48,785 nt of DNA from contig DAIDKV010000113.1 in NCBI GenBank assembly GCA_027449865.1, positions 1 through 48,785 of the forward strand, written 5' to 3'. Under the pieces are notes generated by a model. The model saw only the letters and a program-made list of their open reading frames with translations. It was not told the origin of the DNA and did not search any database. Each line of letters opens with the position of its first letter. Position 1 is the first letter of the stretch. Positions 14,709 to 40,579 of the stretch are shown here, piece after piece. The position numbers and the translations under genes are program-made. This stretch comes from Planctomycetales bacterium (GTDB lineage Bacteria; Planctomycetota; Planctomycetia; Isosphaerales; Isosphaeraceae).

Positions 14709-15548
14709 ATTTCGAACGTCGCCTCCCCATCGGCGTATCTTCTTTCTGCCGAAAGGTTCTCCGATCATGATCCTTCAACCCACGGTCCGCAGTTCACCCA
14801 GAACGTGGAAGGCCCTCATCCCGGAAATTTCGCCAGAACGCCCTTGAAGCCTGGCCAGGGGCCTGCCTATGGTGTTAGAGACGTGTAACGGATTCCTCAG
14901 GGATGGGTTCGTTTCCAAGGACGGTCGACATCGTCCACGACCCTCCCGGCGCACGCCGCCGGAACCTCGCTCCCGAGCGGGCCGCACCTTCCAGGCAGCG
15001 CGCTCAGCCGGCCTCGAAGGATCGTGCCGGATCGCGTGGTGGTTCATGGAACCAATAGGATCGACTGGAAGCTCGGGCTCGTGAAGGTCCGAAAGGGTAC
15101 AGCGTCGATTCAGGCCGATGCCTCGCGTCGTGTGAAGGCGTCCGCGGGATCGAGAGGCAGGAAAAGTCATTCTCCCACGGAAATCAGAGTCTGAACCGGC
15201 CAATAATCCGTCCGGTGATCGTTCGCGCCTCGTCGCCTCAGCGGCTCGAGCGAGGTTCCTCAGCCTCACCCCGTCCACCCGTCATCCCACCTGTATTCGG
15301 CTCGGACTTGTTTTCCTAAATGCCTGGGATTTCAACCTCTTGTGCCTATAAATATTGTTCTTTCTGTTGCTTGATCTCACAAAATCATGAAGGAATGGAT
15401 TTTCGAGGATCTGGTATTTGAATTGCAGGGGTAATGGGGCCCAAGGTTTTTCGGCCCATGAGATGTGAGCCGCTGTCGACAGACGATCGGCGGCGAGGTG
15501 AGTCGAGGGCCTGCGACGTCGGGCATCGGCCCCCGGAAGGAGACCGCG
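14709..15548. other. Long non-coding stretch upstream of the lipopeptide locus
   Basis: No recognisable gene in about 840 bases. The open frames on both strands read as Arg/Pro-rich low-complexity protein and have no family features. Base composition changes: 15300-15435 is clearly AT-rich against a GC-rich background, including a TATAAA at 15347-15352 without a good -35. This is the likeliest place for the locus promoter. Confidence 0.5.
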
Positions 15549-15755
15549 ATGACGAGCGACGATCAGGGGCGTTACAAGGTGGTTGTGAATCCGGAGGGAC
15601 AGTACTCGATCTGGTTCGCCGATCGCGAGAATCCGCCCGGCTGGGAAGACGCGGGCCGAGAAGGCCCCAGGGAGGAATGCCTGACGTACATCGAGGAGGT
15701 CTGGACGGACATGCGACCGCTCAGCCTCAGGAAGCGGATGGAAGAGGCGAAGTGA
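15549..15755 (+). CDS. MbtH-like NRPS accessory protein
   Basis: A 68-residue MbtH-family protein with the diagnostic segments YKVVVNPEGQYSIWFADRE, PPGWEDAG and the block YIEEVWTDMRPLSLRKRM. These proteins bind adenylation domains and are needed for their folding or activity. AAGGAG 6 bases before ATG 15549 fixes the start over an in-frame ATG at 15465. The next gene begins 4 bases after its stop, so it leads the lipopeptide operon. Its likely partners are the four adenylation domains downstream. Confidence 0.95.
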   Translation: MTSDDQGRYKVVVNPEGQYSIWFADRENPPGWEDAGREGPREECLTYIEEVWTDMRPLSLRKRMEEAK

Positions 15756-15759
15756 TCTC

Positions 15760-18700
15760 ATGGATCGACCACCCGACGCGACGATCGACGGCGCGGAGAC
15801 CTTGGTCTCGCTCCTGCGACGATCCGCGGCCGAGAATCCAGCCGCCGAACTGTTCTCCTTCCTTCCCGACGGTGAGCCGACCGGCGCCCTTGCGATGACT
15901 CGCGGCGATCTCGATCGAGTCGTCCGGGAACTGGCCGCCCGGCTTCAGTCGCGGGGTCTTGCCGGCGAGCGGGCGCTGCTGGTTTACCCGCCGGGGCTGG
16001 ATTTTCTCGTCGCGTTTTTCGGCTGCCTGTATGCGGGGGTGGTGGCCGTTCCCGCCTATCCACCGCGTCCCAACCGGCCGATGACCCGCCTGATTTCAAT
16101 CGTCGAGGATGCCCGGCCCGCGGTCGTTCTGACCTGCGATTTGCTCCAGAACGAATCGGTCCGATGGTCGGGCGGCATCCCGGAACTCTCGGGGGTCGAG
16201 GTCCTGGTTTCCGATGAGTCGGGCCCCGCCGGTACCGGCTGGAAAGATCCCGGCGCCTCGGCCGAGACCCTGGCCTTCCTGCAATACACCTCCGGGTCGA
16301 CGGCCGCACCCAGGGGTGTGATGATCTCGCACGGCAACCTGATGGACAACTCCAGGCGCATTCAGGCCATCTTCGGCTCAAGAGCCGGCGAGCGGGGCGT
16401 GTTCTGGCTACCGCTCTTCCACGACATGGGGCTGATTGGCGGCGTGATTCAGACCCTCTACTGCGGCGGGTCGAGCACGCTGATGTCCCCCGTCTCCTTC
16501 CTCCAGCGCCCGCTCCGTTGGCTGGAGGCGATCAGCCGGACCGGCGCGACGATCAGCGGGGCGCCGAACTTCGCGTATGACCTCTGCGTCGAGAAATCGA
16601 CGCACGAACAACGAGCTGCGCTCGATCTCTCGCAGTGGAAGGTCGCCTTCAACGGGGCCGAACCCGTCCGTGCCGAGACCCTGGAGCGATTCGCCGAGGC
16701 GTTCGAGCCGGCCGGCTTTCGTGCCGAGGCTTTTCTCCCCTGTTACGGTCTGGCCGAGGCCACGTTACTTGTCTCGGGCCATCCATCTGGCCAGCGTCCG
16801 GTGATCCTCTCCCTCGACGCCGCCGCGCTGGGACGCGGTCTGGCCTCCGATCCCGGCGAGGACGCGACGATCGCCCGACTCGTGAGCAGCGGGCGCCCCG
16901 CGGAGGGCCACCTCGTCGCAATCGTCGACCCGGCCGCAGGGATCGAACGGTCCGAGGACCAGATTGGCGAAATCTGGGTTTCCGGGCCGAGTGTCGCCCA
17001 GGGCTACTGGGGACGTCCCGAGGAGTCTGGCCGAACGATGGGCGCGAGCCTTCACGGACGGGAAGGCGCGACGTTTCTCCGGACCGGAGACCTCGGCTTC
17101 CTCCGTGGCGGCGAGGTTTTCGTCGCGGGGCGAATCAAGGATCTGATCATTCTCCACGGGCGGAACATCTATCCGCAGGACGTGGAGTGGGCGGCCGAGC
17201 GTTCGCATCCCGCGCTCCGGGCGGCCGGTGCCTCAGCGTTTGCCGTCGAAATCCACGGCGAGGAGCGGCTCGCGGTCGTCGCCGAGATCGAGCGAAGACT
17301 CCCGTCGGGCGCCAGTGCCGAGATCTTCGGGGCGATCCGAAGGGCCGTCGCCGAGGCGGTCGACGTCGAGGTTTCTGCGATCCGGATCATCCGACCCGCA
17401 ACCCTCCCGCGCACCTCGAGCGGGAAGGTTCAGCGACACCTCTGCCGCGAGGCCTTCCTCGCCGGTTCGCTTGAGACCCTTGCCGAGTGGAACCTCCCCG
17501 CGCCAGGAACGAAGGTCGCCACAAAAGGGCCCGTCGTCGAAGCCACAGAGGATCGCCCCGCGGCTTCCGGGCGATCCCGGCGCGAGATTGCCGCCTGGCT
17601 GGCGGACCGTGTCGCCAGGTCGCTCGGGATTCGTCCCGACGAGATCGACCCGCGCGCCCCGCTCTCGGGCTTTGGAATCGGTTCCATGCAGGCGGTTCGG
17701 CTGGCGTCCGAACTGGAGGAATGGCTCGGCCGGAAAGTCGCGCCGACCCTGGTTTACGATTACCCGACCATTCTCGCGATCGCCGGCCATCTCTCGGGTG
17801 GAATCCTGGACGCCCGGGGCGCCGCGGCGGTCCAGACCCTCGACCCAGGCAAACGCGAACGCGAGCCGATCGCGATCGTCGGGATCGGCTGCCGGTTCCC
17901 CGGCGCCCGTGGACCGGTCGCCTTCTGGAACCTTCTTTGCGACGGGGTCGAGGCGATCGGCGAGGTTCCCGACGCCCGATGGACTCCCGACGATCTCGAC
18001 GGCCTGGACTTCCCAGCGCGGAGTGGATTTCTCCAGGGGATCGACCTCTTCGACGCGTCTTTCTTCGAGATCACCCGCCGCGAGGCGACGTTCCTCGACC
18101 CACAGCAACGAATGCTTCTGGAGGTCACCTGGGAGGCCCTTGAGGATGCCGGCCAGCCTCCCGACCGGCTCGCTGGTGCCCCCGTCGGTGTGTTCATCGG
18201 GATTTCCACGAGCGATTACGCATTTATTCAGATGAGTCGAGGCGGCGATCCGATCGGCCACCGGATTACCGGCGGCTCGGCGAGTATCGCGGCTAACCGG
18301 ATCTCGCACTTTCTTGACCTGCGCGGCCCGAGTCTGGCGATCGACACGGCCTGCTCGAGCTCGCTCGTCGCGACTTTGACCGCCTGCCGGAGCCTGTGGG
18401 AAGGCGAATCGGAGATGGCTCTGGCCGGCGGGGCGAACGTGCTGCTCCAGCCGCAGGTTTTCGAGGGTTTTGCGAGAGGCGGATTCCTTTCGCCGGATGG
18501 CCGCTGTCGGGCCTTCGACGCCGGTGCGAATGGCTACGTCCGGGGCGAAGGCGTCGGGGTGGTTGTCCTCAAGCCGCTTTCCCGGGCCCTGGCCGACGGC
18601 GATCGTATCTACGCCCTGATCCGGGGTGGCGCCGTCAACCAGGATGGCCGGACCATCGGCCTGACCGCTCCCAGCGGCCCCGCTCAGCAGTCCGTCCTTC

Positions 18701-21700
18701 GCGCGGCTTATCGAGAGGCTGGGATTGAGCCGGGGCAGGTCGATTACATCGAGGCGCATGGCACCGGGACGCCACTTGGAGATCCGATTGAGCTCGCCTC
18801 GCTCGGCTCGGTTCTCGGCGAGGGCCGAGCGGCCGGCGGCCGATGCGCCCTCGGATCGGTCAAGACGAACATTGGTCACCTGGAGGCCGCGGCCGGAATC
18901 GCTGGGCTGATCAAGACCGCGCTGGCGCTCCACCATCAGACGATCCCCGCCAGCCTCCACTACACCCGGCCCAATCCGCATGTCGACTTCGATGCCCTTC
19001 CGCTTCAGGTCGTCGAGCGAACGCAGCCCTGGCCCTCGAAATCCGGCCCCGCTCGCGCCGGTGTCAGCGCGTTTGGCTTCGGCGGGACCAACGCTCACCT
19101 CGTTCTCGAAGAGGCCCCATCGCCTCCCTTCGAGCCGCCTTGGAAACCGAACTCGCCCGACTCCGCCGACCTGGCAATCCCGATCTCCGCGCGGACGCCC
19201 GAGGCGCTCGCCGATCTCGCCCGATCGCTCGGAGACTTCCTTCGCCAGGCCCATGAGGCGATCGACCTCCGCGACGTCGCCTTCACCGCGGGAGCCCGGC
19301 GGGCTCACCTGGAGCACCGGCTCGCGATCGTCGCGGCCGACCGGGACGAGGCCATCGGAGCGCTCTCCGCCTTTCTCCGCGGCGAGCCTCATCCCTCGGT
19401 GATGACGGGCCGCCGCCGCTTTGGGCCTGGCAATGGGCCCGTGCTGGTCTTCCCCGATCAAGTGGCCATTCCCCCAGCCGAGGCGCTTGCCTCGTTCCGT
19501 GACGACCCCGCCTTCCGCGCGACAATCGAGCGGGTCGAGGCGGTACTTCCCGATCCGGCGGCTCCCGATGCCCAGCGCTTCGCGATCCAGCTTGCGATGG
19601 CGGCTCTCTGGGAATCGTGGGGGATCGTCCCCGGCTTCTGGATGGGCGAGGGCCTCGGCGCACTGGCCGCATCGGTCGCCTCGCGACGGATCACGCTCGA
19701 CGAGGCGGCCCGAATCCTCGACGGGCAGGCGAAGCGTCCGGAGTCGATGGACATTGCCGACGAGCTGGCACGAGCCGCCGCTCAGGACCCCGAGGCCATC
19801 CTCGCGATCGGTACTCGCCCCGGTCTCGCCTCGGTGATCCGATCGGCTTGTGTCCAGGCAGGTGTGGCTCCGGTCGTGGTCGAGTCGCTACGAGTCGGCG
19901 ATCGTGGGCTCCAATCTCTCTCCTGGGCGGTCGCCGCGCTCCACGCAGGGGGGCTCGACCTGGAGTGGTCTCGCCTGCCGACGGCCGGGCGATTCGTTCG
20001 ATTGCCAAGCTATCCGTGGCAGCACCAGCGCTACTGGTTCGATCAGGAGACTCCGCTGCCTCGGTCCTCCGACATCGGAAGCACGGCTCCGCTCGATCTC
20101 GCCCCAGTCGAGCCCGCGACGACACACCCCTCCCTCCTCGACTACCTGCGGGAGAAGGTTGGCGGCCTGCTCGGACTCTCGCTGAACGAGGTGGACCTCG
20201 ACCGCTCGCTCATGGCAATGGGGATGGATTCCATCTTTGCGATGGAGTTGAAGCTCGATCTCGACGCCCACCTCGGCGCGAAGCTTCCGCTCTCCATTCT
20301 GATCGAGGGATCCTCCATTCGAGAGATCGCCGAACGAGCGGGTCAGTACCTCGCGGAGGAAACCGAGGAGCCAATGGGCGAGGTCCGCGAGGGAACGCCG
20401 CCAACGGCCGGGCCTCAACTCTCGCACGGCCAGCGAATGCTCTGGTCTGCCTTGAAGCTCTCACCAACGGGCGCGGCCTACCACATCGCCGGCGCCGGGC
20501 TGATCCAGACCGCGGTCGACATCGAGGGACTGCGGCGCGCCCTTCTGAGAGCGATCGACCGGCACGAGGCACTCCGCTGCATTTTCCCGGCCGACTCCGA
20601 AGGGCCATCGCTCCGCCTCCTCGACGCCGAAGACCTCGCCGCTCTGGAGACGAACTGGTTCCGCATTGAGGACGCCTCGGCGCTCGATCTCGACGCGATC
20701 CCAGCCCGGTTGACCGAGCTGGTCCACATTCCGATCGAGCTCGAGAGCGGCCCCCTGTTCCGCGTCCACCTACTGAATCGGGCGGACTCCAGGCGGATCG
20801 TCCTTCTGGTCTTCCACCATATCATCTCGGATTTCCTCTCGGCGGCGGTCTTCCTTGATGACCTGGCGCGGGCCTACATGGAGGAGATCGGCGGTCCCGC
20901 CAGTGACTGGCCTTCGCCGATCCCGTTTGGTGAGTTCGTTCGATGGCAAGAGTCGCAGTTCCAGGGCGAGACCGGCGATCGGCTCTGGTCGTACTGGCGC
21001 CGACAGCTTGAGGGCCCGCTCCCGGTCCTCGACCTGCCTACCGACTTTCCCCGCCCCGCTGTCCGGGGTGAACGAGCCCGGACCTTCCACGACGAGCTCG
21101 ACCCGGACCTGACCGCTGCCCTCATCGCGCTGGCCGAGGTGCACGGAGCGAGCCTCTACACCACCCTGCTCGCCGCCCTTCAGGCGTTTCTCGCGCGATG
21201 GTCGGGCCAGGATGAAGTGATCGTCGGTACGCCCGTCTCCGGACGGACGCGACCCGGTCTCGAGGGATCGTTCGGCTACTTCGTCAACATGCTCCCGATG
21301 CGGGCCGACCTCCGCGGCGGCCCGACGTTCGCCGAGTTTCTGGCGCGGGTCCGGCGCACGGTCGCCGAGGCGCTGGAACACCAGGATTTCCCCTTCGCCC
21401 TGATGTTCGAGCGACTCCGGATTCCCTCCGACCCCAGCCGAACGCCAATCTTTCAGGCGATGTACGCCCACCAGCGCTCGCACCGGCTCGACGAGCGCGG
21501 CCTGGCGCCTTTCGCGCTAGGGGTCGGCGGCGCCCGGCTCGACCTGCATGGCTTACCGGTTCAGTCGATCGCCCTCGATCGGGGGACGACACAGTTCGAG
21601 CTGAACCTCCTTAGCGTTCGCGATGGCGACCGCCTCCGCCTCGCGTGGGAGTATCGCTCGGACCTCTACGCGGAGCGGACGATCGAGTCGATGGCCGAGG

Positions 21701-21876
21701 GCTTCCGCGCCCTGCTCGCGGCGATCATCTTCGAGCCCGACCGGCCGATCGGTCTGCTCCCGATGCTGGACGAGGACGAGCGCCGGCTCGTCCTGGACGG
21801 ATGGGGCGAGGGCCGGATGCCCGATGATGACGGCGAGGATCTCGTCGCGCTCCTGGATCAGGTCTCCCCATGCTAA
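15760..21876 (+). CDS. Hybrid loading/PKS/NRPS protein: FAAL-ACP-KS-(eroded AT)-ACP-C
   Basis: 2038 residues. A fatty acyl-AMP ligase (about 1-575; VPAYPPRP, YTSGSTAAPRG, LFHDMGLIGGV) activates a free fatty acid and loads ACP1 (Ser642 in GIGSMQ). A ketosynthase follows (about 695-1110) with intact Cys865 (DTACSSS), His1000 (EAHGTGT) and His1040 (KTNIGHLE). The next about 300 residues align with the KS-AT linker and an acyltransferase. The usual GHSxGE reads WMGEGLG near 1294-1300, the GQG loop reads FPDQVA, and the domain is roughly 100 or more residues short, although the post-AT YPWQHQRYWF motif remains. ACP2 carries Ser1491 (GMDSI). A condensation domain ends the protein (HHIISDF, His1687 and Asp1691; Phe replaces the usual Gly). 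No KR or DH is present, so an extended chain would stay 3-oxo. The acidic C-terminus may dock the next protein. Confidence 0.92.
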   Translation: MDRPPDATIDGAETLVSLLRRSAAENPAAELFSFLPDGEPTGALAMTRGDLDRVVRELAARLQSRGLAGERALLVYPPGLDFLVAFFGCLYAGVVAVPAYPPRPNRPMTRLISIVEDARPAVVLTCDLLQNESVRWSGGIPELSGVEVLVSDESGPAGTGWKDPGASAETLAFLQYTSGSTAAPRGVMISHGNLMDNSRRIQAIFGSRAGERGVFWLPLFHDMGLIGGVIQTLYCGGSSTLMSPVSFLQRPLRWLEAISRTGATISGAPNFAYDLCVEKSTHEQRAALDLSQWKVAFNGAEPVRAETLERFAEAFEPAGFRAEAFLPCYGLAEATLLVSGHPSGQRPVILSLDAAALGRGLASDPGEDATIARLVSSGRPAEGHLVAIVDPAAGIERSEDQIGEIWVSGPSVAQGYWGRPEESGRTMGASLHGREGATFLRTGDLGFLRGGEVFVAGRIKDLIILHGRNIYPQDVEWAAERSHPALRAAGASAFAVEIHGEERLAVVAEIERRLPSGASAEIFGAIRRAVAEAVDVEVSAIRIIRPATLPRTSSGKVQRHLCREAFLAGSLETLAEWNLPAPGTKVATKGPVVEATEDRPAASGRSRREIAAWLADRVARSLGIRPDEIDPRAPLSGFGIGSMQAVRLASELEEWLGRKVAPTLVYDYPTILAIAGHLSGGILDARGAAAVQTLDPGKREREPIAIVGIGCRFPGARGPVAFWNLLCDGVEAIGEVPDARWTPDDLDGLDFPARSGFLQGIDLFDASFFEITRREATFLDPQQRMLLEVTWEALEDAGQPPDRLAGAPVGVFIGISTSDYAFIQMSRGGDPIGHRITGGSASIAANRISHFLDLRGPSLAIDTACSSSLVATLTACRSLWEGESEMALAGGANVLLQPQVFEGFARGGFLSPDGRCRAFDAGANGYVRGEGVGVVVLKPLSRALADGDRIYALIRGGAVNQDGRTIGLTAPSGPAQQSVLRAAYREAGIEPGQVDYIEAHGTGTPLGDPIELASLGSVLGEGRAAGGRCALGSVKTNIGHLEAAAGIAGLIKTALALHHQTIPASLHYTRPNPHVDFDALPLQVVERTQPWPSKSGPARAGVSAFGFGGTNAHLVLEEAPSPPFEPPWKPNSPDSADLAIPISARTPEALADLARSLGDFLRQAHEAIDLRDVAFTAGARRAHLEHRLAIVAADRDEAIGALSAFLRGEPHPSVMTGRRRFGPGNGPVLVFPDQVAIPPAEALASFRDDPAFRATIERVEAVLPDPAAPDAQRFAIQLAMAALWESWGIVPGFWMGEGLGALAASVASRRITLDEAARILDGQAKRPESMDIADELARAAAQDPEAILAIGTRPGLASVIRSACVQAGVAPVVVESLRVGDRGLQSLSWAVAALHAGGLDLEWSRLPTAGRFVRLPSYPWQHQRYWFDQETPLPRSSDIGSTAPLDLAPVEPATTHPSLLDYLREKVGGLLGLSLNEVDLDRSLMAMGMDSIFAMELKLDLDAHLGAKLPLSILIEGSSIREIAERAGQYLAEETEEPMGEVREGTPPTAGPQLSHGQRMLWSALKLSPTGAAYHIAGAGLIQTAVDIEGLRRALLRAIDRHEALRCIFPADSEGPSLRLLDAEDLAALETNWFRIEDASALDLDAIPARLTELVHIPIELESGPLFRVHLLNRADSRRIVLLVFHHIISDFLSAAVFLDDLARAYMEEIGGPASDWPSPIPFGEFVRWQESQFQGETGDRLWSYWRRQLEGPLPVLDLPTDFPRPAVRGERARTFHDELDPDLTAALIALAEVHGASLYTTLLAALQAFLARWSGQDEVIVGTPVSGRTRPGLEGSFGYFVNMLPMRADLRGGPTFAEFLARVRRTVAEALEHQDFPFALMFERLRIPSDPSRTPIFQAMYAHQRSHRLDERGLAPFALGVGGARLDLHGLPVQSIALDRGTTQFELNLLSVRDGDRLRLAWEYRSDLYAERTIESMAEGFRALLAAIIFEPDRPIGLLPMLDEDERRLVLDGWGEGRMPDDDGEDLVALLDQVSPC

Positions 21877-22219: not shown

Positions 22220-25200
22220 ATGAGTCAGTTGAAGGAACCCCGCGCCGAACTGACGCTCGAACAGAAACGGGCCCTGGTCGCCAGACTCCTGAAGGAAAAG
22301 GCGGATCGATCGGCCTCCGTCCCGGTCCACCGTCGCATCGAGGAGCAGGTGGTTCGGACCCCGGACACACCGGCTGTCCGCGATGGCTCACGCGCCTTGA
22401 CTTATCGCCAGCTCAATGCCAGGGCCAATCAGATCGCCCGACGCCTCCGCGAACTCGGGGTCGGCCCCGAGGTCCTCGTCGGCATCGGAACCGGGCGGAC
22501 GGTCGACATGGTCGCCGCCGTCCTCGCCGTGTTGAAGGCTGGCGGAGCGTATGTCCCGCTCGATCCCTCCTATCCGGACGATCGGCTCGCCTTCATGCTC
22601 GCCGATTCCGGCGCCGCCATCCTGATTACCGAGGAAACGCTCCGCGATCGCTGGACGTTCGCCGAGTCCGGAATCCTGCTCCTCGACTCGGATGAAACCG
22701 GCGACGAGACCGATCTCGAGATCCAGCCCGATCCGGCGAATCTGGCTTATGTGATCTACACCTCGGGCTCGACGGGCCAGCCGAAGGGCGTTCAAATACC
22801 ACACGCGGCGTTGTCGAACCTGCTTGGCTCGATGCGGACGATTCTGGGGATTGCGTCTCACGACGCGGTGCTGGCCGTGACGACGCTCTCCTTCGACATT
22901 GCCGTGTTGGAGTTGCTGCTGCCGCTGGTTTCGGGTGGCCGAGTCGAGTTGCTGGACCGAGAGAGCGCCGCGGATGGGTCGCGGCTGATCGAGCGGCTGG
23001 ATCATCCGGAGATCACGTACTTTCAGGCGACGCCAGCGACGTGGCGGATGGTTCTGGAAGCGGGCTGGCGAGGCAAGCCTGGCCTGAAGATGCTCTGCGG
23101 AGGCGAGGCGATGCCGAGGGGGCTGGCCGATCGGCTTGTCGGCCAGGGGGCAGCCCTCTGGAATCTGTACGGACCGACGGAGACGACGATCTGGTCGAGC
23201 GTCTGGCGGGTCGAGCCAGGTGAAGGACCGATCTCCATCGGCAAGCCGATCAGCGATACGCAGATTTATGTGCTTGATCGTAGAATGCGGCCCGCGCCGC
23301 CCGGAGTGACGGGCGAGCTCTATATCGGGGGATTGGGCCTGGCCCGCGGGTACCGGGGCCGACCGGCGCTGACGGCGGAGCGGTTTGTGCCCGATCCCTT
23401 CGCCCGGCGTCCCGGCGCGCGGCTGTACCGGACAGGAGACCTCGCCCGATGGCGGCCGGATGGCACGCTCGAATGCCTTGGTCGGGTAGACCACCAGGTG
23501 AAGATTCGTGGCTTCCGCATCGAGCTGGGAGAGATTGAATCGGCCCTCTCGTCGCATCCCGCCATTCGAGAGGCCGCGGTTGTGACGCATCCGGATGCCT
23601 CGGGTGAGATGGGACTGGCCGCTTATCTGGTCCCGCGCGCTGGCGAGGCAACTCCAGCACACGCCGATCTTCGGGCCTGGCTCCATTCAAAGCTTCCTGA
23701 ATACATGATACCGTCGGTATTCTTGACGCTCGAATCGATGCCGATGACACCCAACGGCAAGATCGACCGCAACGCCCTCCCCGAACCGGCTCGCGCCCGG
23801 CAGTCCGAGGGTCCAGGGTTTGTCCCGCCGCGTGGGCCGATCGAGGAAGCGCTGGCCGAAACCTGGGCCGACCTCCTTGGAGCCCGGAGGATCGGGGCGC
23901 ACGACAGTTTCTTCGACATCGGCGGCCACTCGCTGATGGTCATGAAGATGCTCGCGAGAGTTCGAGCCCTCTTCGAGATCGAGGTCCCACTTAAGGACTT
24001 CATTGAGGGACCAACGCTGGCGAACCTTGCCCGGCTGGTCGAGCGAGCGCTGGTGAACGACGGAGGGTCGATCGCTCCCCCGATCGAGCGCGTCGATCGC
24101 TCTCAGCCGCTCCCCGCCTCCTTCGCCCAACATCGACTCTGGTTCCTGGATCAATGGCAGCCAGGGAGCCCGGCCTACAACATCCCGATCGCCGTTCGAC
24201 TCGACGGCCCGCTCGATGTTGATACCTTCCGTCGAGCCCTTCACGAGATCGTCCGGCGCCACGAGATCCTCCGCTCGAGCCTCACCGACGACGAGGGAGA
24301 ACCTCGTCTGGTCATCGCCGAGGCCATCGAACTGCCCATGCCCGTCGACGATCTCTCGATGCTTGCCGACGACCAACGCGAGAAGCGTATCATTCAGGCC
24401 ATTCGAGACGAGGCGACCCGCCCGTTCGACCTGGCGCATGGACCGCTCGTGCGAGCCCAGATGATTCGGCTGAGTGAGGAGCGGCACATCGTCCAGGTCA
24501 CGATGCACCACATTGTTTCCGATGGATGGTCGCTGCGCCTCTTGATCCGAGAGCTATCCGCGCTCTACGAGGCGTTCCGCGCCGGCGAGCCCTCGCCTCT
24601 GCCTGAATTACCGATCCAGTACGCCGACTTCGCGTCCTGGCAGCGGGCGTGGCTCCAGGGCGACGTGCTGGAACAGCAACTCGCTTACTGGAAAGAACAG
24701 CTAACCGGGATCGCGCCCATCGAACTGCCGACCGACCGGCCGCGTCCCGCGGCTCCCTCCAGGCGCGGCGACTTCCGAAGGACGGTCGTTGCGCGAACCG
24801 CTATCGATGCCGTTCGGGCCCTCGGCCGCGAGGAGGGCGCGACACTCTACATGACCCTCCTGGCTGCCTTCCAGACACTCCTGCACCGGTATTCCGGCGA
24901 TGAGGACATCGCCGTTGGCTCTCCGATCGCCGGCCGGAACCGGCCCGAGCTGGAGGGCCTTATCGGTTTCTTCGCCAACACGCTGGTCCTGCGCGGAAAC
25001 CTCAGCGGCGACCCCGGCTTCCGCGAATTGCTCCGCCGAACTCGACGAGCCGCGATCGACGCCTACGCCCATCAGGAGATCCCCTTCGAGCGGGTCGTCA
25101 CGGCGATGCACACGGATCGTGACTCGGGACGATCTCCGCTCTTTCAGGTCATGTTCGTCTACCAGAACGATCCGCTTCCGACCCCTGGCTCCTCGGACCT

Positions 25201-25525
25201 AACGATCACACCCCTGGAGACCCCGCTCGGTACGGCGAAGTTCGACCTGACCCTCTTCGCCGATGAGTCGCCCGAGGGGCTCGGTCTGGTGATGGAGTAC
25301 AGTACCGACCTGTTTGATCCGGCGACCATCGATCGGATGCTGGCCCACTTCCGCGCTCTGCTGGAAGCAATCGTCGCCGAGCCGGACCGGCCGATCGGTC
25401 TGCTCCCGATGCTCGCTGAAGACGAGCGCCAACTCGTCATGGGCGGATGGGCCGAGGGCGAGATGCCCGACGCCGATCACGGCGAGGATCTCGATGCGAT
25501 CCTGGACCAACTCTCCCCACGCTGA
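22220..25525 (+). CDS. NRPS module A-PCP-C, predicted glycine
   Basis: 1101 residues. The adenylation domain (about 35-520) has TSGSTGQPKG, LYGPTE, YRTGDLARW and NGKIDR. Aligning to GrsA by eye gives the code DILQLGLIWK, a pattern associated with glycine. The carrier domain has Ser571 (GGHSLM). The condensation domain (about 625-1060) has an intact HHIVSDG (His763, His764, Asp768). No epimerase is present. The protein begins at A and ends after C, so its A domain serves the C domain of the previous protein and its own C domain serves the next. The N-terminal region is rich in Lys/Arg and Leu (LEQKRALVARLLKEK) and the C-terminus is acidic, which suits docking. Part of the A domain has a near copy in the fourth megasynthase gene. 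Confidence 0.92.
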   Translation: MSQLKEPRAELTLEQKRALVARLLKEKADRSASVPVHRRIEEQVVRTPDTPAVRDGSRALTYRQLNARANQIARRLRELGVGPEVLVGIGTGRTVDMVAAVLAVLKAGGAYVPLDPSYPDDRLAFMLADSGAAILITEETLRDRWTFAESGILLLDSDETGDETDLEIQPDPANLAYVIYTSGSTGQPKGVQIPHAALSNLLGSMRTILGIASHDAVLAVTTLSFDIAVLELLLPLVSGGRVELLDRESAADGSRLIERLDHPEITYFQATPATWRMVLEAGWRGKPGLKMLCGGEAMPRGLADRLVGQGAALWNLYGPTETTIWSSVWRVEPGEGPISIGKPISDTQIYVLDRRMRPAPPGVTGELYIGGLGLARGYRGRPALTAERFVPDPFARRPGARLYRTGDLARWRPDGTLECLGRVDHQVKIRGFRIELGEIESALSSHPAIREAAVVTHPDASGEMGLAAYLVPRAGEATPAHADLRAWLHSKLPEYMIPSVFLTLESMPMTPNGKIDRNALPEPARARQSEGPGFVPPRGPIEEALAETWADLLGARRIGAHDSFFDIGGHSLMVMKMLARVRALFEIEVPLKDFIEGPTLANLARLVERALVNDGGSIAPPIERVDRSQPLPASFAQHRLWFLDQWQPGSPAYNIPIAVRLDGPLDVDTFRRALHEIVRRHEILRSSLTDDEGEPRLVIAEAIELPMPVDDLSMLADDQREKRIIQAIRDEATRPFDLAHGPLVRAQMIRLSEERHIVQVTMHHIVSDGWSLRLLIRELSALYEAFRAGEPSPLPELPIQYADFASWQRAWLQGDVLEQQLAYWKEQLTGIAPIELPTDRPRPAAPSRRGDFRRTVVARTAIDAVRALGREEGATLYMTLLAAFQTLLHRYSGDEDIAVGSPIAGRNRPELEGLIGFFANTLVLRGNLSGDPGFRELLRRTRRAAIDAYAHQEIPFERVVTAMHTDRDSGRSPLFQVMFVYQNDPLPTPGSSDLTITPLETPLGTAKFDLTLFADESPEGLGLVMEYSTDLFDPATIDRMLAHFRALLEAIVAEPDRPIGLLPMLAEDERQLVMGGWAEGEMPDADHGEDLDAILDQLSPR

Positions 25526-25537
25526 GCGGCCGATATC

Positions 25538-28500
25538 ATGAGATCGACAATTAAACTGGAGTCAATGAAAAAGAGCGGGGCCGACGAGTCCTCGACCACC
25601 GGTACGAGGCTTGTGGCTCGATTGCGTCCCGTTCACCGATGGATCGAGGCCCAGGCGGCACGTTCCCCCAGCGCCCTCGCCGTGACGGCCCCGGGGGATT
25701 CCCTCACCTTCGCCGAGCTCGACGCCCGGGCCAACCGCCTCGGGCGCCGACTCCGCGACCTGGGAGTCGGGCCGGAGGTCCTTGTCGGGATCTCTCTGCC
25801 GCGATCGACCGAGATGGTCGTTTCGTTGCTGGCCGTGTTGAAGGCAGGCGGGGCGTATGTGCCGATGGACCCCTCCTACCCGCCCGATCGGCTCGCTTAT
25901 CTCGTCGAGGACTCCCGCGTTCCCGTCTTGCTGACTCACTCCACCCTGATCGACCGCCTGCCGACAGGATCGGCCGAGCGTGTCGCGCTCGATCGCGATC
26001 GCCGATGGGTCGACGACGGCCCGGACGAGGCTCTCCATCACGATGATGACCTCGACCGCCTGGCCTATGTGATTTATACCTCGGGATCGACCGGACGTCC
26101 CAAGGGAGCGATGATCCACCATCGGGGCCTCGCGAATTACCTCGCCTGGGCGGCCCGCGCCTACACGATTCCGAAGGGCGAGGGCGCGCCGGTTCATTCC
26201 TCGATCGCCTTCGATTTGACCGTCACCTCGATGCTGGCCCCGCTCGTCGCCGGTCGTCGGGTCGACCTGCTCGACGAGGGCCTAGGAATCGAGCAACTGG
26301 GCGGGGCACTCCTGCGATCGAAGGGCTACAGCCTGGTCAAGATCACCCCGGCGCACCTTCGGGCCCTCGGTGACCAGTTCGACCCCGACGAGGTTGCCGG
26401 GCGCACTCGCGCCTTCATTATTGGCGGCGAGCAACTGACCGCCGAACACGTCGCCTTCTGGCGTGAAAACGCCCCCGAGACCGACCTGATCAATGAGTAT
26501 GGTCCGACCGAGACCGTCGTCGGCTGCTGTGTCTACAAGATCCCGCCCGGCGAGCCGATCGAGGGCGCGATCCCGATTGGCCGGCCAATCGCTGGAACCC
26601 GACTCTACGTCCTTGACAGACAGATGCAGCCGGTCCCGGTCGGAGCCCAGGGTGAGCTTTACATCGGCGGGATCGGCGTGGCCCGCGGCTACCTCAATCG
26701 CCCCGGTCTGACCGCTGAGCGCTTCGTTCCCGATCCACACTCGGGCGAGCCGGGCGCGCGGCTCTACCGGACGGGCGACCTCGCCCGGTGGCGGGCCGAT
26801 GGCCAGCTCGAATACCTCGGTCGGCTCGATCATCAGGTGAAGATCCGCGGTTACCGAGTCGAGTTGGGCGAGGTCGAGGCCTTCCTCTCCTCGCATCCGG
26901 CCGTCACCGGCGCCGTCGTGATCGCCCGCGAGTATGGAACTGACGATCGACGGCTCGTCGCCTACGTCACCGGCGCAGGCGCCCCCCGACCGTCAGAGCT
27001 ACGCGGATGGCTCCTGGAGCGGCTCCCCGACTACATGGTCCCCTCGGCGATCGTTGCTATGGAGGACCTGCCACTGACCCCCAACGGCAAGGTCGACCGT
27101 GAGGCCCTCCCTGACCCCGGCCGATTGACCAACCCGAACGGGATCATCCCTCCGCGAGGGCCGGTCGAAGAGGCGCTCGCCGAGGCCTGGGCCGATCTGA
27201 TCGGCGGCGGTCCGGTCGGCGTCTACGACAACTTCTTCGAGGTCGGCGGCCACTCCCTGATGGCCTTGCAACTCCTGGCGAGAGCCCGGCAGGTCTTCGA
27301 GGTTGAGGTCTCACCCCGCGACTTCATCGAGGCTCCAACACTCGCCAATCTCGCCCGACTGGTCGAGCGCGCTCTCGCCGAGGGGAGCACGCCGGCTCCT
27401 CCAATCCTGCACGTGGATCGCTCGGAACCTGTCCCCGCCTCCTTCGCCCAGCAACGCCTCTGGTTCCTCGACCGGTTGCAACCGGGCGCCTCCGCCTACA
27501 ACGTCCCGATCGCGGTCCGGCTCGACGGCCGGCTGGACGCCGAGGCCCTCCGCCGCGCCGTCGAGGAGGTCATCCGTCGGCACGAAATCCTTCGCACCAC
27601 CTTCTTTGACGACGGCGGCATCCCTCATCAGGTCATCGGCGAGCCCAGGGTTCTCGAACTTCCCCTGGATGACCTCTCGACGCTCACCGAGACGGACAAG
27701 GCGACCGCCCTGGCGATGGCGAGCGTGCTGGAGGAAGCCGCCCGTCCATTCGACCTGGCGCGTGGACCGCTCGTGCGAGCCCGGCTGATCCGGCTGAGTG
27801 AGGAGCGGCACATTGTCCAGGTCACGATGCACCACATTGTTTCCGATGGATGGTCGATGGGCGTCCTGATCCGAGAGGTTTCCACACTCTACGAGGCGTT
27901 CCGCGCCGGCGAGCCCTCACCGTTGCCGGAGCCCTCGATCCAGTACGCCGACTTCGCGGCCTGGCAGCGGGAATGGCTCCGGGGCGAAGTACTTGAAGAG
28001 CAACTCTCCTACTGGAAGCGACAGCTTGCCGGGATTACGCCGCTGGAGCTACCGACCGACCGCCCCCGTCCGGCCGTCCTTTCCGGCCGTGGCGACGAGC
28101 GGACAGTCACCCTCCCGCACAGCGTGATCGAGGCCCTCCGCCCGATCGCTCGCGAGGAGGGCGCGACGCTCTACATGGCCCTGCTCACCGCCTTCCAGGC
28201 GCTCCTGCACCGCTACTCCGGGCAGGAAGACATCGCCGTGGGCTCGCCGGTGGCAGGCCGGTCGCGATCCGAGACCGAGAACCTGATCGGTTTCTTTGTC
28301 AACACTCTGGTCCTGCGCGGCGATCTCGGCGGCGATCCTGGCTTCCGCGAAGCCCTCCGCCGGACCCGTCGTACCGCCATCGACGCCTATGCTCATCAGG
28401 ACCTCCCCTTCGAGCGGCTCGTCACGGCGCTTCATCCCGATCGAGAACTGGGACGGTCGCCGCTCTTCCAGGTCATGTTCGCCCTTCAGAATGCCCCGCT

Positions 28501-28909
28501 CCCGGCCCTCCGGTCGTCCGAGCTCACCCTCATTCCGCTCCAGGCACCCAGCGGGACAGCGAAGTTCGACCTGACCCTCTCGGCGATGGAATGGCCCGAG
28601 GGACTGGTCCTGACGATGGAGTACAGCACCGACCTGTTCGACGCGGCGACCATCGACCGCATGCTGGCCCACTTCCGTATTCTGATCGAAGCCGCGACCG
28701 CCGAGCCCGATCGACCGATCAGTTCGCTGCCGATGCTGACCGAGGAGGAACGACAGCAAGTTCTCGCCGGCTGGGGCGCCGGTGCGACCGACGACGGCTG
28801 GGACGCCGACGACCTCGACGACCTGATGGCGGACCTCGACGCGGCAGACCAGGCTGGCGTCGACGCTCTGCCCGAAGCAACCACCGGAGAGCGAGCGTTC
28901 GAGCCATGA
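25538..28909 (+). CDS. NRPS module A-PCP-C, predicted asparagine
   Basis: 1123 residues. The A domain has TSGSTGRPKG, EYGPTE and NGKVDR, and by-eye pocket residues DLTKIGEVGK, very close to known Asn codes. The carrier Ser is 573 and the condensation motif HHIVSDG is intact (His765, His766, Asp770). The C domain is nearly the same as that of the preceding gene over long runs of DNA. The start is uncertain: ATG 25538 has no ribosome site, while ATG 25565 has GGAG 3 bases away. The gene starts 12 bases after the previous stop and overlaps the next start by ATGA. The C-terminus has an Asp-rich tail (residues about 1085-1100) longer than that of its siblings. Confidence 0.92.
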   Translation: MRSTIKLESMKKSGADESSTTGTRLVARLRPVHRWIEAQAARSPSALAVTAPGDSLTFAELDARANRLGRRLRDLGVGPEVLVGISLPRSTEMVVSLLAVLKAGGAYVPMDPSYPPDRLAYLVEDSRVPVLLTHSTLIDRLPTGSAERVALDRDRRWVDDGPDEALHHDDDLDRLAYVIYTSGSTGRPKGAMIHHRGLANYLAWAARAYTIPKGEGAPVHSSIAFDLTVTSMLAPLVAGRRVDLLDEGLGIEQLGGALLRSKGYSLVKITPAHLRALGDQFDPDEVAGRTRAFIIGGEQLTAEHVAFWRENAPETDLINEYGPTETVVGCCVYKIPPGEPIEGAIPIGRPIAGTRLYVLDRQMQPVPVGAQGELYIGGIGVARGYLNRPGLTAERFVPDPHSGEPGARLYRTGDLARWRADGQLEYLGRLDHQVKIRGYRVELGEVEAFLSSHPAVTGAVVIAREYGTDDRRLVAYVTGAGAPRPSELRGWLLERLPDYMVPSAIVAMEDLPLTPNGKVDREALPDPGRLTNPNGIIPPRGPVEEALAEAWADLIGGGPVGVYDNFFEVGGHSLMALQLLARARQVFEVEVSPRDFIEAPTLANLARLVERALAEGSTPAPPILHVDRSEPVPASFAQQRLWFLDRLQPGASAYNVPIAVRLDGRLDAEALRRAVEEVIRRHEILRTTFFDDGGIPHQVIGEPRVLELPLDDLSTLTETDKATALAMASVLEEAARPFDLARGPLVRARLIRLSEERHIVQVTMHHIVSDGWSMGVLIREVSTLYEAFRAGEPSPLPEPSIQYADFAAWQREWLRGEVLEEQLSYWKRQLAGITPLELPTDRPRPAVLSGRGDERTVTLPHSVIEALRPIAREEGATLYMALLTAFQALLHRYSGQEDIAVGSPVAGRSRSETENLIGFFVNTLVLRGDLGGDPGFREALRRTRRTAIDAYAHQDLPFERLVTALHPDRELGRSPLFQVMFALQNAPLPALRSSELTLIPLQAPSGTAKFDLTLSAMEWPEGLVLTMEYSTDLFDAATIDRMLAHFRILIEAATAEPDRPISSLPMLTEEERQQVLAGWGAGATDDGWDADDLDDLMADLDAADQAGVDALPEATTGERAFEP

Positions 28910-31900
28910 GCAGCACGATCCGAGAAGCGGCGGGCCTCGCGGTCGGAATCCCGGCCGGACGGCTCCCCGAGATGCCCCGAAAGTCCGCTTCCAAGCCGAG
29001 GTGCGTCCACCGATGGTTCGAGGCCCAGGCGGCCCGAACCCCCGACGCCCCCGCCGTTGCCGACACCACTCGAGCCCTCTCCTACCGTCAGCTCAACGCG
29101 AAGGCCAACCGGATCGCACGCCAGCTTCGCGACCTCGGTGTCGGCCCCGAGGTTCTTGTTGGCCTCTATCTCCACCGCTCGGTCGACATGCTCGCCGCGC
29201 TGCTGGGAATCCTGAAGGCCGGCGGAGCCTATGTCCCGCTCGACCCAGCCTACCCGCTCGACCGACTCACCATGATGCTTGACGACGCCCGCCCCGCCGT
29301 CGTCGTCACCGAAGAGGCTCTTCGCAACCACCTGCCCGCCACCGACTCCACCCGGCTTGTCCTCGACGGTAGCCATCTCTCGTCGACCTCCATCCCCGAC
29401 GACGACCTACCCGATGGCGCTAACCTGGCGAACCTGGCTTATGTGATCTACACCTCGGGCTCGACGGGCCAGCCGAAGGGCGTTCAAATACCGCACGCGG
29501 CGTTGTCGAACCTGCTGGTCTCGATGCGGACGATTCTGGGGATTGGGAGTCACGACGCCATGCTGGCGGTGACGACGCTGTCCTTTGACATAGCCGCGTT
29601 GGAGTTACTGCTGCCGCTGGTTTCGGGTGGCCGTGTCGAGTTGTTGGACCGTGAGAGTGCGGCGGATGGAACCCGGCTGATCGAGCGGCTGGATGACCCG
29701 GGGATCCGCTATTTTCAGGCGACGCCGGCGACGTGGCGGATGGTTTTGGAGGCGGGCTGGGGTGGGAAGCCGGGTTTGACGATGCTCTGCGGCGGCGAGG
29801 CGATGCCGAGGGTACTGGCCGACCGGCTGGTTGGCCAGGGGGCGGCCCTCTGGAATCTGTACGGACCGACGGAGACAACGATCTGGTCGAGCGCCTGGCG
29901 GGTCGAGCCAGGTGAAGGACCGATCTCCATCGGTAAACCGATCGCAAATACACAACTCTATGTCTTAAATCAAGCGATGGAGCCGGTCCCACCTGGTGTG
30001 ACGGGAGAGCTCTATATCGGGGGATTGGGCCTGGCCCGCGGGTACCGTGGCCGACCGGCCCTGACGGCCGAGCGGTTTGTGCCCGATCCCTTTGCCCGAC
30101 GCCCCGGCGCTCGGCTTTACCGGACCGGTGACCTCGCGCGATGGCGGCCGGATGGGACGCTGGAATGCCTTGGGCGGGTTGACCACCAGGTGAAGATTCG
30201 TGGTTTTCGCATTGAGCTGGGCGAGATCGAATCGGCTCTCTCCGCGCATCCGGTGGTTCGACAGGCCGTGGTGGTCACTCGCGAGTACGCTCCCGACGAC
30301 TTCCGCCTGGTCGCCTACCTGACCGCCCATACCGAGGCTCCGACTGTCGCCGAACTCCGCCGACATCTAAAAACACTCCTGCCTGAATATATGATTCCGT
30401 CGGCATTTGTAATGCTCGAATCGATTCCGAAGACCCCCAACGGCAAGGTCGACCGTGCCTCGCTCCCCGCGCCCGATTCTGACCGATCGGGCTCGGTGGC
30501 GTTTGTTTCGCCGCGAACGCCGATTGAGGAGTTACTCGCGGGCGTCTGGTCGTCGGTACTGGGGGTCGAGCGGGTGGGGGCGTTCGACAACTTCTTCGAG
30601 CTCGGCGGCCACTCGCTGCTGGCGACTCAGGTGGCGTCTCGCGTCCGCGACGCGATCGGCCTGGACCTCCCACTCCGCGAGTTCTTCGGCGATCCGAGCA
30701 TTGCCGGAGTCGCGCGTCGGATCGAGGACCGCACGAGGGCCGAGGCCGGTCTGGAGGTACCACCGCTTCTCCCGGTCCAGCCAGACGGCCCTGTTCCAAC
30801 CTCGTTCTCGCAGCAGGCTCTCTGGTTCCTCGATCAGCTTGCACCGGGGCAACCGACGTTTAACATCACCCTCGCCGGAAGGGTCCGCGGTCCGCTCGAT
30901 CGGGAACTCCTGGGCCGATGCTTCGCCGAGATCATTCGACGGCACGGTACGCTTCGGACCACCTTCGCGAGCGTCGACGGCGAACCGGTCCAGATCGTCG
31001 CCGATGCGATCGACCTGCCCATCAGCATGACCGACCTGCGGGCGTTCGACCTCTCGACACGAGAGCCGGAGGCTCGCCGTCTGGCCGTTCAGGAGGCTCG
31101 ACGACCGTTCGACCTCGCCCAGGGCCCGCTGGCGCGCGTTCACATCGTCGCGATTTCCGACGACGACCACGTCGTCCTTTTGACGATGCACCACATCATC
31201 GGCGATGGCTGGTCGCTAGGTGTCGCGGCACGCGAGCTGACGACCCTTTACCAGGCGCTTCGCCGCGGTGAGTCGTCGCCCCTCGAACCGCTTCCGATCC
31301 AGTACACCGACTATTCTCGGTGGCAGCACCGCCTGCTCGAAGGCGACCGGCTCGCTCGGCTGGTCGGCTACTGGACGAGGCAACTCGCGGGCGTTTCGCC
31401 GCTGGAACTGCCGACCGACCGGCCTCGTCCTCCGATCCGGTCCAACCGCGGCGACTTCCTTCCATTCGCGATCCCGATGGAGATCGCCGCCCAGTTGCGT
31501 GACCTCGGCCGGCGCGCCGGTGCCACGCCGTTCATGGTCCTGCTCGCCGCGCTCCAGGTGATATTGCACCGCTACTCGGGCCAGGATGACATTGTCGTCG
31601 GCTCGCCGATCGCGAATCGCAATCGATCAGAGGTCGAGGGTCTGATCGGTTACTTTGTGAACATGCTGGCGCTTCGAACGGATCTATCGGGCGATCCGAG
31701 CTTTTTGACGCTGGTCCGCCGGGTGCGGAATGTCGCCCTGGCCGCCTACGAGCACCAGGACCTCCCGCTCGAGAAGGTTGTCGAGGCGATCCGTCCTCCG
31801 CGCGACTCAAGCCGGTCCCCGCTCTTTCAGGCGATGTTCGTCCTCCAGAACAATCAGATCCCTGAGCTATCGCATGCCGAGCTGGCCATCGCCCCGCTCG

Positions 31901-34900
31901 ACCTCGACGAGGGAACCGGCACCGCCAAGTTCGATCTGACCGTCTCGATGGCCGAGGCCGGCGCGGGGATGTCGGGCGGATTCGAATTCAACACCGACCT
32001 CTTCGATCGATCGACAATCAAACGTATGATCGATCACTATTGTACCTTGCTTGCGGGGATCGCCGCTGACCCCCGCCGCCGGATCTCGGCCCTGCCGATG
32101 GTCGACCGGATCGAGCGAGCGCGGCTTCTCGCCCTTGGCGAAGGACCCTGGGTCGAGATCGATCCAACCGTCTGCGTCCACCGCCGGATCGAGGCCCAGG
32201 CCGCGCGCACGCCCGACGCGCTCGCGGTCGAGGCCGGCGATCGCAGGATGACCTATCGCGAGTTGAACGAGCGAGCCAATCAGCTTGCTCGAGAGCTGAA
32301 GATCCGGGGGATTGGTCCCGATCGTCGGGTTGGCGTCGGCCTGCTCCGTTCGACCGAGCTGGCTGTCGCGCTGCTGGCGACGCTCAAGGCCGGCGGTGCC
32401 TTCGTCCCGCTCGATCCTGAGTACCCACCCGACCGCCTCGCCGCAATGCTTGAAGACGCGCGCGCCGCCGTCCTGCTCACGCAGGAGGCCCTCATCGACC
32501 GATGGCCCCCGACGGCCGCGAACATTCTTTGCCTCGACGTCGACCGAGCCTCGATCGACGGCCATCCGACAGGCGACATCCACGACGGTCCGACCGCTGA
32601 CGAGGCCGCTTACGTCATTTACACCTCGGGCTCGACCGGCGAGCCGCGCGGGGTGGTTGTCCGGCACGGCGGGCTCCTCCATCACAACCTCGCGGTCGCA
32701 CATCTGTTCGGCCTTCGGCCCGAGGACCGCGTCCTGCAATTTTCCTCGCTCAGCTTCGACATCGCGATCGAGGAACTCTTTCCCGCCTGGATCGTCGGGG
32801 CCTCGGTCGTCTTCCTCGACGAGGGACCGCTTCCTGGACCCTCCGAGTTCGCCGCCGATCTTGAGGCGCGTCGGATCACGGTCCTCGACCTGCCGACTGT
32901 CTTCTGGCATGCCTGGGTCGAGGGCCTGGCGACCCTCGGCGAAACGCTTCCCACCTCGCTTCGTCTGGTGGTCGTTGGTGGTGAGAAGGCGTCGGCTCGC
33001 CGGTTTGCCGACTGGTCGGCCATCGGCGGCGATCGTGTCCGATGGATCAATACTTATGGTCCAACCGAGGCGACCGTCGTGGCGACCTCGTTCGAGCCCA
33101 GCCCTGGCTCGGCGCCCGCGGAGATGCCGATCGGCCGGCCGATCGCCGGAACACGAATTTACCTCCTCGATCGACATCTGGAGCCAGTTCCTCAGGGCCT
33201 TCCGGGCGAGCTCTACATCGGCGGCGAGGGCGTGGCCCGCGGCTACCTGGGCCGGCCGTCGTTGACCGCCGATCGGTTCCTTCCCGACCCCTTCGCCGAT
33301 CGCCCCGGCGCCCGGATGTTCCGGACCGGCGATCGCGCCCGGTGGCGGCCCGACGGCCAGCTCGAATTTCTCGGACGCGTGGATCATCAGGTGAAGATCC
33401 GCGGATTTCGGGTCGAGCCGGGCGAGGTCGAGTCCGTCCTTCGCCGGCATCCGACCGTCGGCGATGCCATGGTCGTCGCCCGCGATGTCCCTGGCGGCGG
33501 CCGTCGCCTCGCCGCCTACGTCGTCCCAAGAACCTCAACCAGGCCCGACGTCGACGAACTTCGCCGATGGGTCCGGTCAGCTCTCCCGGATTACATGGTT
33601 CCCTCGGCGATCGCAACGCTCGACGCCTGGCCGCTCTCGCCCAACGGCAAGATCGATCGCCGGGCCCTTCCCGATCCCGGTCCTCTCGCTGCCGAATCGG
33701 CCGCCGGGTATGTCGCGCCTCGGACTCCGATCGAGGAGATCATGGCCCGGGTCTGGGCCGAGGTCATGGAGCGGGATCGTGTCGGCATTCACGACAACTT
33801 CTTCGATCTTGGCGGCCACTCGTTGCAGTCGGTCCAGCTTGTCTCGCGGCTTTCCGCCGCTCTTGGGCAGCCGATCCAGGTCAAGACGGTCTTCCAGGCC
33901 CCAACCATCGCCGAGATGGCCGCCATCCTCGAGCGCGAGTCAAAAGCCCTGGCCGGTCCCGACGTCGCCACGCTCACCCGGTGGCTGCTCGACGCGCCGG
34001 CTCCCAGGCTCCCTGATCATGTCGAGATCGAGGGTCGGCCGTTCGACTCGCTGTTTGCCTCAGGCGAGCTGGCGGCCATCGATGCGGCGGCGATCAGCTA
34101 TTTCCCGGCCTCACTCCTGCACGGCCTGGGCCTCGACCGCGAGACCATCACGCGCGACTGGTGCCGCGATCGTCCCGTGATCGCCGACGTCCGCCAGGCC
34201 CCGATGGGGCGGATCGCGACGATTCTTATCCCTCGGTTCGAGGACCAGCTTTACCTCGACCGCGCGGATCTCCTCGCCCGGTTGATCGACGCGGTCCGCC
34301 TGGCCGGTTCGATCGGGGCGAGCACGGTCTCGCTCACCGGCCTGCTCCCCTCGGCGAGCGACTACGGCCGGGACCTGGCCTCGGCGCTCGGCGGTCGCGG
34401 CCTTCCCCGGATCACGACCGGCCACGCGACCACCACCTCGGCCGTGGTCCTGGCGATCCGTAGGGCCATCGAGGAGGCCGGGCGCGATCTGGCCGGCGAG
34501 CACGTTGGGTTCGTCGGAGTCGGCTCGGTCGGCCTCGCGACTCTCCGGCTGATGCTCTCCAGCCTGCCGCATCCACCGAAGCTCACCCTCTGCGACGTCT
34601 TCTCTCGACGGCCCGCCCTCGAATTGCTCCGCCGAGAACTGGCCGAGGAACTGGGCTATCGAGGCGAGGTCCAGATCCTCGCCTCGAGCCACGAGGTTCC
34701 GGCCGAGATGTACCAGGCAAGCCTGATCGTCGGCGCGACGAACGTGGCCGAGATCCTCGACATCCACCGCGTCTCGCCGGGAACGATCGTGGTCGACGAC
34801 TCGGCGCCTCATGTCTTCCGCCCGGATCTGGCGTTTCGCCGATTGGAGGAGCAGGGTGATATCCTGGTCACCGAGGGTGGCCTGCTCCGGGCGCCTCAGC

Positions 34901-36878: not shown

Positions 36879-36903
36879 CGATTACCAGAGGGATCCACCG
36901 TCC

Positions 36904-39764: not shown

Positions 39765-40057
39765 TTCGACTGGTGGCGAAACCAACATCGATACCTCGCG
39801 GCAAGCGACTTTCAACCGTCCGCAAGGTTCGCCATCCAGGCCAGGCCGACCGAGACGACCCCGCCAGACGTCGGCGCCGGGAAGCTCCAACCCAACGCCG
39901 ACGTCTTCTCGAATCTTGCCTACTCCTGAAATGAGACGCTGGTGAACCGAACCACAAGGCCCAGAGTCCTCAGGCCCACGTCCCCATAAACGGCTTGTCC
40001 TTGCTGGAACAGCAGTTACAATTTCCTCATCCAATCCGGCCCAACGGAGAGTGTGAC

Positions 40058-40579
40058 ATGGCAAGTCGGAAACCAAGACTGAGTAAAGAGTTGCCCCAGC
40101 CAGAGGTTCCTGATACGCCCCAGCAATCGTTGACGGTCCGATCCGTATCAGGCCTGGGAGCGGATTTGATTGAGGATTACCTTGCGATCGTGAGCACCAG
40201 GGCCCAGGAATTCGCCAAACAGAATACCTCCGCGGAATTTCCAGCGAGAATTTGTCCTGGCAGAATCGAGCAAAGAACTCTTCTGCATTCCATTAGGAAC
40301 CACTTGATTTCCTCGCAATTAAGGGAGAGATTGGCGCTCGATGAATTGGTGGAGCTTTTCTATATCGTTCTCGATCAGGCTCCCGTTGAGCAGGAACCTT
40401 TGCCACTCCGGGATCGTTCCACTCTGGAGTTGGCGAACGACGTTCTGGAGAAACCTGGGCTCTGGCTGAGAACGCCAAACCCGCGACTCGGCGACCGGAA
40501 GCCGATCGATCTCCTGGATACGGATGAAGAACACAGGGTCCGCGACATCCTGATCGCAGTCGATCAGGGCCTCTTCTGA
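40058..40579 (+). CDS. Antitoxin of the Xre/MbcA/ParS type (DUF2384)
   Basis: The 173-residue protein has a C-terminal toxin-binding DUF2384 domain (about 115-173), with LANDVLEKPGLWLRTPNP and RKPIDLLDTDEEHRVRDIL. The N-terminal half is predicted helical and may bind DNA, as in Xre-type antitoxins. ATG 40058 has GGAG 8 bases upstream; a longer frame begins at 39995. Its stop overlaps the toxin start (TGATG at 40577-40581), the usual antitoxin-first order. It should neutralise the RES toxin and repress its own promoter. Confidence 0.82.
   Translation: MASRKPRLSKELPQPEVPDTPQQSLTVRSVSGLGADLIEDYLAIVSTRAQEFAKQNTSAEFPARICPGRIEQRTLLHSIRNHLISSQLRERLALDELVELFYIVLDQAPVEQEPLPLRDRSTLELANDVLEKPGLWLRTPNPRLGDRKPIDLLDTDEEHRVRDILIAVDQGLF

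Follow-up and report, generated by a model that had tools for sequence, protein, structure and literature searches.

An eroded acyltransferase beside a conserved ketosynthase in a FAAL-initiated planctomycete lipopeptide synthase

The DNA analyzed here (the window) is one whole contig of 48,785 nucleotides from the 8.5-Mb draft genome of a planctomycete of the Isosphaeraceae. It encodes a hybrid synthase that combines a dead acyltransferase (AT) domain and a lost KR domain with a ketosynthase (KS) retaining all its catalytic residues, and the loss has a common ancestry in five genomes. We lean, with about even confidence, towards a cis-AT elongation module with a dead AT, in which the KS still condenses and ACP2 would be loaded with malonyl in trans by FabD.

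The synthase is the first protein of a lipopeptide assembly line, whose FAAL-ACP start is followed by C-A-PCP modules as in FAAL-initiated lipopeptide synthetases. No aminotransferase domain was found in it, and the MbtH-like gene directly upstream holds the same position next to the orthologous synthase of eroded and intact relatives alike. The features of the locus are as follows.

15465..15755, + strand: MbtH-like protein, directly upstream of the synthase (Pfam MbtH, 3.9e-21)
15760..21876, + strand: hybrid synthase FAAL-ACP1-KS-linker-AT remnant-ACP2-C, 2038 aa (ORF and Pfam domains)
15817..17010, + strand: FAAL adenylate-forming domain (AMP-binding, aa 20-417; Pfam, NCBIfam FAAL models)
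17596..17793, + strand: ACP1 (aa 613-678), serine motif GFGIGSM (Pfam, motif check)
17863..18963, + strand: ketosynthase (aa 702-1068), Cys/His/His intact (Pfam, motif check)
18970..19383, + strand: KS-AT linker domain (aa 1071-1208; Pfam PF16197, PF22621 at 63.2 bits, PF22336 at 46.4 bits)
19438..19980, + strand: eroded AT remnant (about aa 1227-1407; alignment with intact relatives, structure models)
20011..20040, + strand: post-AT linker motif YPWQHQRYWF (aa 1418-1427; motif position)
20137..20340, + strand: ACP2 (aa 1460-1527), serine motif GMDSI (Pfam ACP_SdgA_C / PP-binding, motif check)
20419..21786, + strand: condensation domain (aa 1554-2009; Pfam)
22220..25525, + strand: NRPS module A-PCP-C (Pfam)
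25538..28909, + strand: NRPS module A-PCP-C (Pfam)
28591..35232, + strand: NRPS A-PCP-C-A-PCP plus a C-terminal domain with a Rossmann-like stretch (Pfam; partial NCBIfam PigE match; PDB 9e4s match)
35223..36878, + strand: cyclic peptide export ABC transporter (NCBIfam TIGR01194, 407.9 bits against a cut-off of 286.2)

Position 28591 falls inside the preceding ORF, and the true start of the last NRPS probably lies further downstream. Its C-terminal domain (33901-35229) has no significant Pfam match and a weak Rossmann match; it shows similarity to the solved chains 9e4s/9e4x (333 bits), which bear the name amino acid adenylation domain protein, and a weaker one to PigE, and among 59 relatives it is confined to G000-G003 (G000 being the window's genome) and G019. 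It is possibly an unusual reductive release domain. Further downstream, an HlyD/MacA-like adaptor (within 36220-38199) and a MacB-like ABC transporter (41317-43827) may form another export system for the product. A RES-domain protein of a toxin-like family (40579-41139) and the 194-aa ORF that ends at its start (39995-40579) make a possible toxin-antitoxin pair, and an ISL3-family transposase (47480-48733, - strand) lies at the contig end.

The AT remnant lacks the nucleophile serine, the GQG loop and the region of the catalytic histidine. A preliminary description of this DNA had read FPDQVA in place of the GQG loop, WMGEGLG in place of GHSxGE and YPWQHQRYWF after the AT, all of which proved exact (aa 1231-1236, 19450-19467; aa 1294-1300, 19639-19659, with GEGLG at aa 1296-1300; and aa 1418-1427, respectively). 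It had also judged the AT region too short, in agreement with the 201 aa from AT start to post-AT end vs 347-349 aa in intact-AT relatives; from the elbow to the last AT strand the synthase has 52 aa vs 177-179. The approximately 120 aa deleted between elbow and last strand correspond to the stretch that in relatives carries the small subdomain, a conserved RGRxM segment and the histidine of AFHxxQ, elements whose roles are known from FabD/AT structures in general. Pfam did not detect Acyl_transf_1 in the synthase at E<=0.001, and in a six-frame search PF00698 matched at model positions 67-113 only, with E=8e-4, below the cut-off. Structure models of middling confidence (mean pLDDT 68.6 and 69.2) present the remnant as a probable shortened AT fold (Z 26.1, rmsd 2.6, 276 residues vs 8ee1), a fold already implied by the sequence alignment and possibly favoured by the intact-AT rows in the model's input alignment. 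The KS retains its Cys/His/His (DTACSS, EAHGTGT, KTNIGH) and both ACPs their serine motifs, as described previously; the claim of an otherwise intact KS-ACP module holds for these residues but not for the KR, which relatives carry between AT and ACP2 and which is absent here. A 101-base stretch of the region shows nothing unusual in its RNA fold (z -0.05), and a plasmid collection returned only short generic KS matches for the region.

Homologues were surveyed in 99 relatives, then in 45 genomes of the family and then in 397 genomes sampled from the class, where the shortened form spans the greater part of the query only in G000, G001, G002, G003 and G008. These are four genomes of the window's genus and one of another genus; identity to the window protein over the searched region is 49% in G002 and 78-80% in G001 and G003. 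All five proteins share the internal deletion of approximately 120 aa and have lost both the serine and the entire KR; the GHSxGE elbow is replaced in each of them (GEGLG, GVGSG, GDGLG) and the catalytic-His motif is present in none, so that every shortened homologue found is devoid of both the serine and the His-carrying region. The G008 protein retains FVFSGQGG, its elbow serine has become glycine, and the N-terminal half of its AT is 0.50-0.57 identical to intact ATs, distant members of which are 0.48-0.53 identical among themselves. G002 and the window group no longer have the GQG loop, and another 21 aa before the elbow are missing from the latter. Judged from these sequences, G008 would represent an intermediate stage of AT loss. 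Homologues bear out the erosion of a once complete AT, as first proposed: there are relatives with an intact AT, five genomes carry one and the same deletion, and an intermediate kept GQG with Ser changed to Gly.

In a KS tree built without trans-AT reference KSs, the five eroded KSs form one clade (100/98) among the KSs of FAAL-ACP-KS-AT-KR-ACP-C proteins, which bears on the cis-AT side of the phylogenetic check that had been suggested: the KS nests with those of intact-AT proteins. Its best single-domain solved relative is CurL, a cis-AT KS (540.6 bits), and the best entry named AT-less, 4qyr, scores 424.9 bits. These data point to a single loss within a cis-AT lineage. The eroded clade is surrounded in the tree by intact proteins, which have a KR (identified by Pfam in G036 and G022 and by alignment in the others); the simplest reading is that the eroded line lost its KR, as it lost the AT activity. 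A separate case is the G007 protein (C180, L059:4632-9728), a FAAL-ACP-KS-AT protein that ends without ACP2 and whose full-length AT has GQGAGE for GHSxGE and ALHGPD for AFHxxQ; this is apparently a second, independent AT inactivation in the same family.

Rough pairwise dN/dS estimates (NG86 on short segments) between the window and G001/G003 are 0.15-0.16 for the KS, 0.15-0.17 for the condensation domain, 0.11-0.12 for ACP2 and 0.21-0.32 for the AT remnant, which would thus seem to be under relaxed, yet not absent, constraint; over the pairs compared, the KS gives 0.15-0.26. KS branches in the tree are no longer than those of intact relatives, and none of the six KS sites changed in the eroded clade only is catalytic. 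At a KS identity of 0.70-0.74, distant eroded pairs are 0.47-0.56 identical in the linker and 0.40-0.45 in the AT N-terminal half; intact pairs at KS 0.66-0.70 show 0.26-0.44 and 0.48-0.53, respectively. With three independent eroded lineages, this is suggestive of a KS-AT linker that may have gained constraint while the AT remnant lost it. CurL-like and RhiE-like linker models of Pfam both match this linker. A more elaborate variant, improbable in our estimation, would have the linker and AT remnant serve as a docking platform for FabD, i.e., a cis-AT module becoming trans-AT independently of the classical trans-AT lineages; the surviving stages would then be the intact AT, the form with GQG kept and Ser changed to Gly, the form that also lost GQG, and the one further shortened by 21 aa.

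With no working AT in the chain, either an enzyme acting in trans supplies ACP2 with malonyl or no extension by the KS takes place, the very choice that the preliminary description had left between FabD-like loading and mere transfer. The search for a free-standing AT that it had called for returned a single one in the genome, FabD, on contig C14 (77508-78419) adjoining plsX; G001, G002 and G008 likewise have one apiece. A PF00698 search of the whole genome and of the relatives' cluster contigs found no AT gene in the cluster, so FabD is named as the partner by elimination; any bacterium that makes fatty acids by the type II system should have this enzyme, so its presence discriminates nothing. 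We favour trans loading by FabD because the KS triad is intact, the KS branches are ordinary and FabD is the only free-standing AT. In this scheme, the FAAL would activate a fatty acid and load it onto ACP1, from which the KS would accept the acyl chain. The housekeeping FabD would most likely be the enzyme that places malonyl on ACP2 in trans, and the KS would condense the two. Since the module has no KR, a 3-oxoacyl chain would then go from ACP2 to the condensation domain, barring reduction by an enzyme acting in trans. What is left of the AT may persist as a spacer holding the KS-AT and post-AT linkers against the KS.

The KR loss is not predicted by trans loading, which keeps a non-extending module as a serious, if rather unlikely, rival: the KS would do no more than hand the ACP1-bound acyl chain over to ACP2, or would serve as a gate for chain length, and the AT and the KR would both have been lost once they had become useless. 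AT function and KR are indeed both missing from the five eroded proteins and both present in intact relatives, and the annotated genes around the synthase include no AT or KR. Non-elongating KSs of trans-AT systems, however, typically lose the HGTGT histidine needed for decarboxylation, which all five eroded proteins keep (EAHGTGT), so that the KS does not fall among the KS0 type, nor does it show acceleration. Another type I PKS in the same cell could also supply ACP2 with malonyl in trans through its AT, and the genome does have further PKS ATs (contigs C235, C58 with two, and C204); this source is very improbable, given that none lies in the cluster and that cis ATs as a rule serve their own ACP. 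The AT on C204 (G000:C204:18684-19535, L054), part of a 1754-aa frame and hit as two overlapping pieces that together score weakly, appears from its sequence to be a divergent AT of another PKS, and similar matches occur in G003 (C20, also 1754 aa) and G001 (C56).

That the synthase belongs to a decaying cluster without a product would fit the AT remnant being among the least conserved parts (0.26-0.45 between three lineages), but we regard it as scarcely probable: frames are open in all five genomes, the downstream NRPS and exporter are complete, and dN/dS is well below 1 in every domain, the remnant included (0.17-0.49). A recent pseudogene is ruled out by the open frames and dN/dS. The close genomes are all fragmented drafts, which might raise suspicion of an assembly or sequencing artefact; the likelihood of this is practically nil, refuted as it is by five separate assemblies that show the same deletion in proteins 49-80% identical to that of the window.

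Returning to trans loading by FabD, the module is cis-AT by descent, judging from the KS tree and the CurL match, and in its likely working resembles a trans-AT module. The functional AT of the cis-AT lineage (GHSxG, catalytic His, GQG loop) is missing; the synthase shares with trans-AT PKSs a module without a functional AT in the chain, but has no discrete AT gene in its cluster as they do, the only one found being FabD on another contig. We do not assign it to the trans-AT PKS class because the cluster has no AT gene and the KS tree has no trans-AT references. The direct relatives are the planctomycete FAAL-ACP-KS-AT-KR-ACP-C proteins (G036, G027, G022, G013, G030), with KSs 63-66% identical and MbtH upstream, which differ in having a complete AT with GHSxGE and AFHxxQ and a KR. 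The iturin/mycosubtilin starters (ItuA/MycA with ItuD/FenF) are likewise single chains with a fatty acyl ligase, an ACP, a KS and a second ACP, and the discrete transacylase ItuD loads the second ACP of ItuA (PMC11751314); unlike the synthase studied here, they have the transacylase gene in their cluster, whereas ours has none and carries an AT piece. PipC of the pseudotetraivprolide/detoxin/rimosamide pathways is a KS module without AT, whose ACP FabD of primary metabolism has been shown to load (PMC12828459). It differs in being equipped with an AT docking domain as well as a KR and in acting after an NRPS part; the synthase described here starts the lipopeptide, lacks a KR and has an AT remnant of cis-AT ancestry. 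According to the available part of the barnesin report (PMC13096860), FabD also serves BrnF, an AT-less PKS module of a lipopeptide that has DH and KR and follows the NRPS, with an AT remnant not mentioned in that part. Pepstatin pepC and pep-like clusters are comparable in having a PKS gene whose AT is truncated, in that a cis AT is present in some related clusters and absent from others, and in the lack of a KR, the ketone being reduced by a separate enzyme (PMC12081711); pepC differs as a free-standing actinobacterial module, and its authors call PepC a KS-AT-ACP module (PMC12081711).

FabD-served AT-less modules, a truncated AT (pepC) and an inactive AT (irumamycin module 12) are already known; a limited literature search found no description of a FAAL-started planctomycete case, of the joint KR loss or of the preserved intermediates. 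The path from cis-AT ancestors to AT-less modules usually has to be deduced from the end states, and one small family with intact, intermediate and strongly eroded forms makes the order of losses readable. For genome mining, the predicted chemistry of the lipid tail depends on whether the module extends the chain or passes it through: extension would add two carbons and leave a keto group, giving a 3-oxoacyl tail unless this is reduced in trans.
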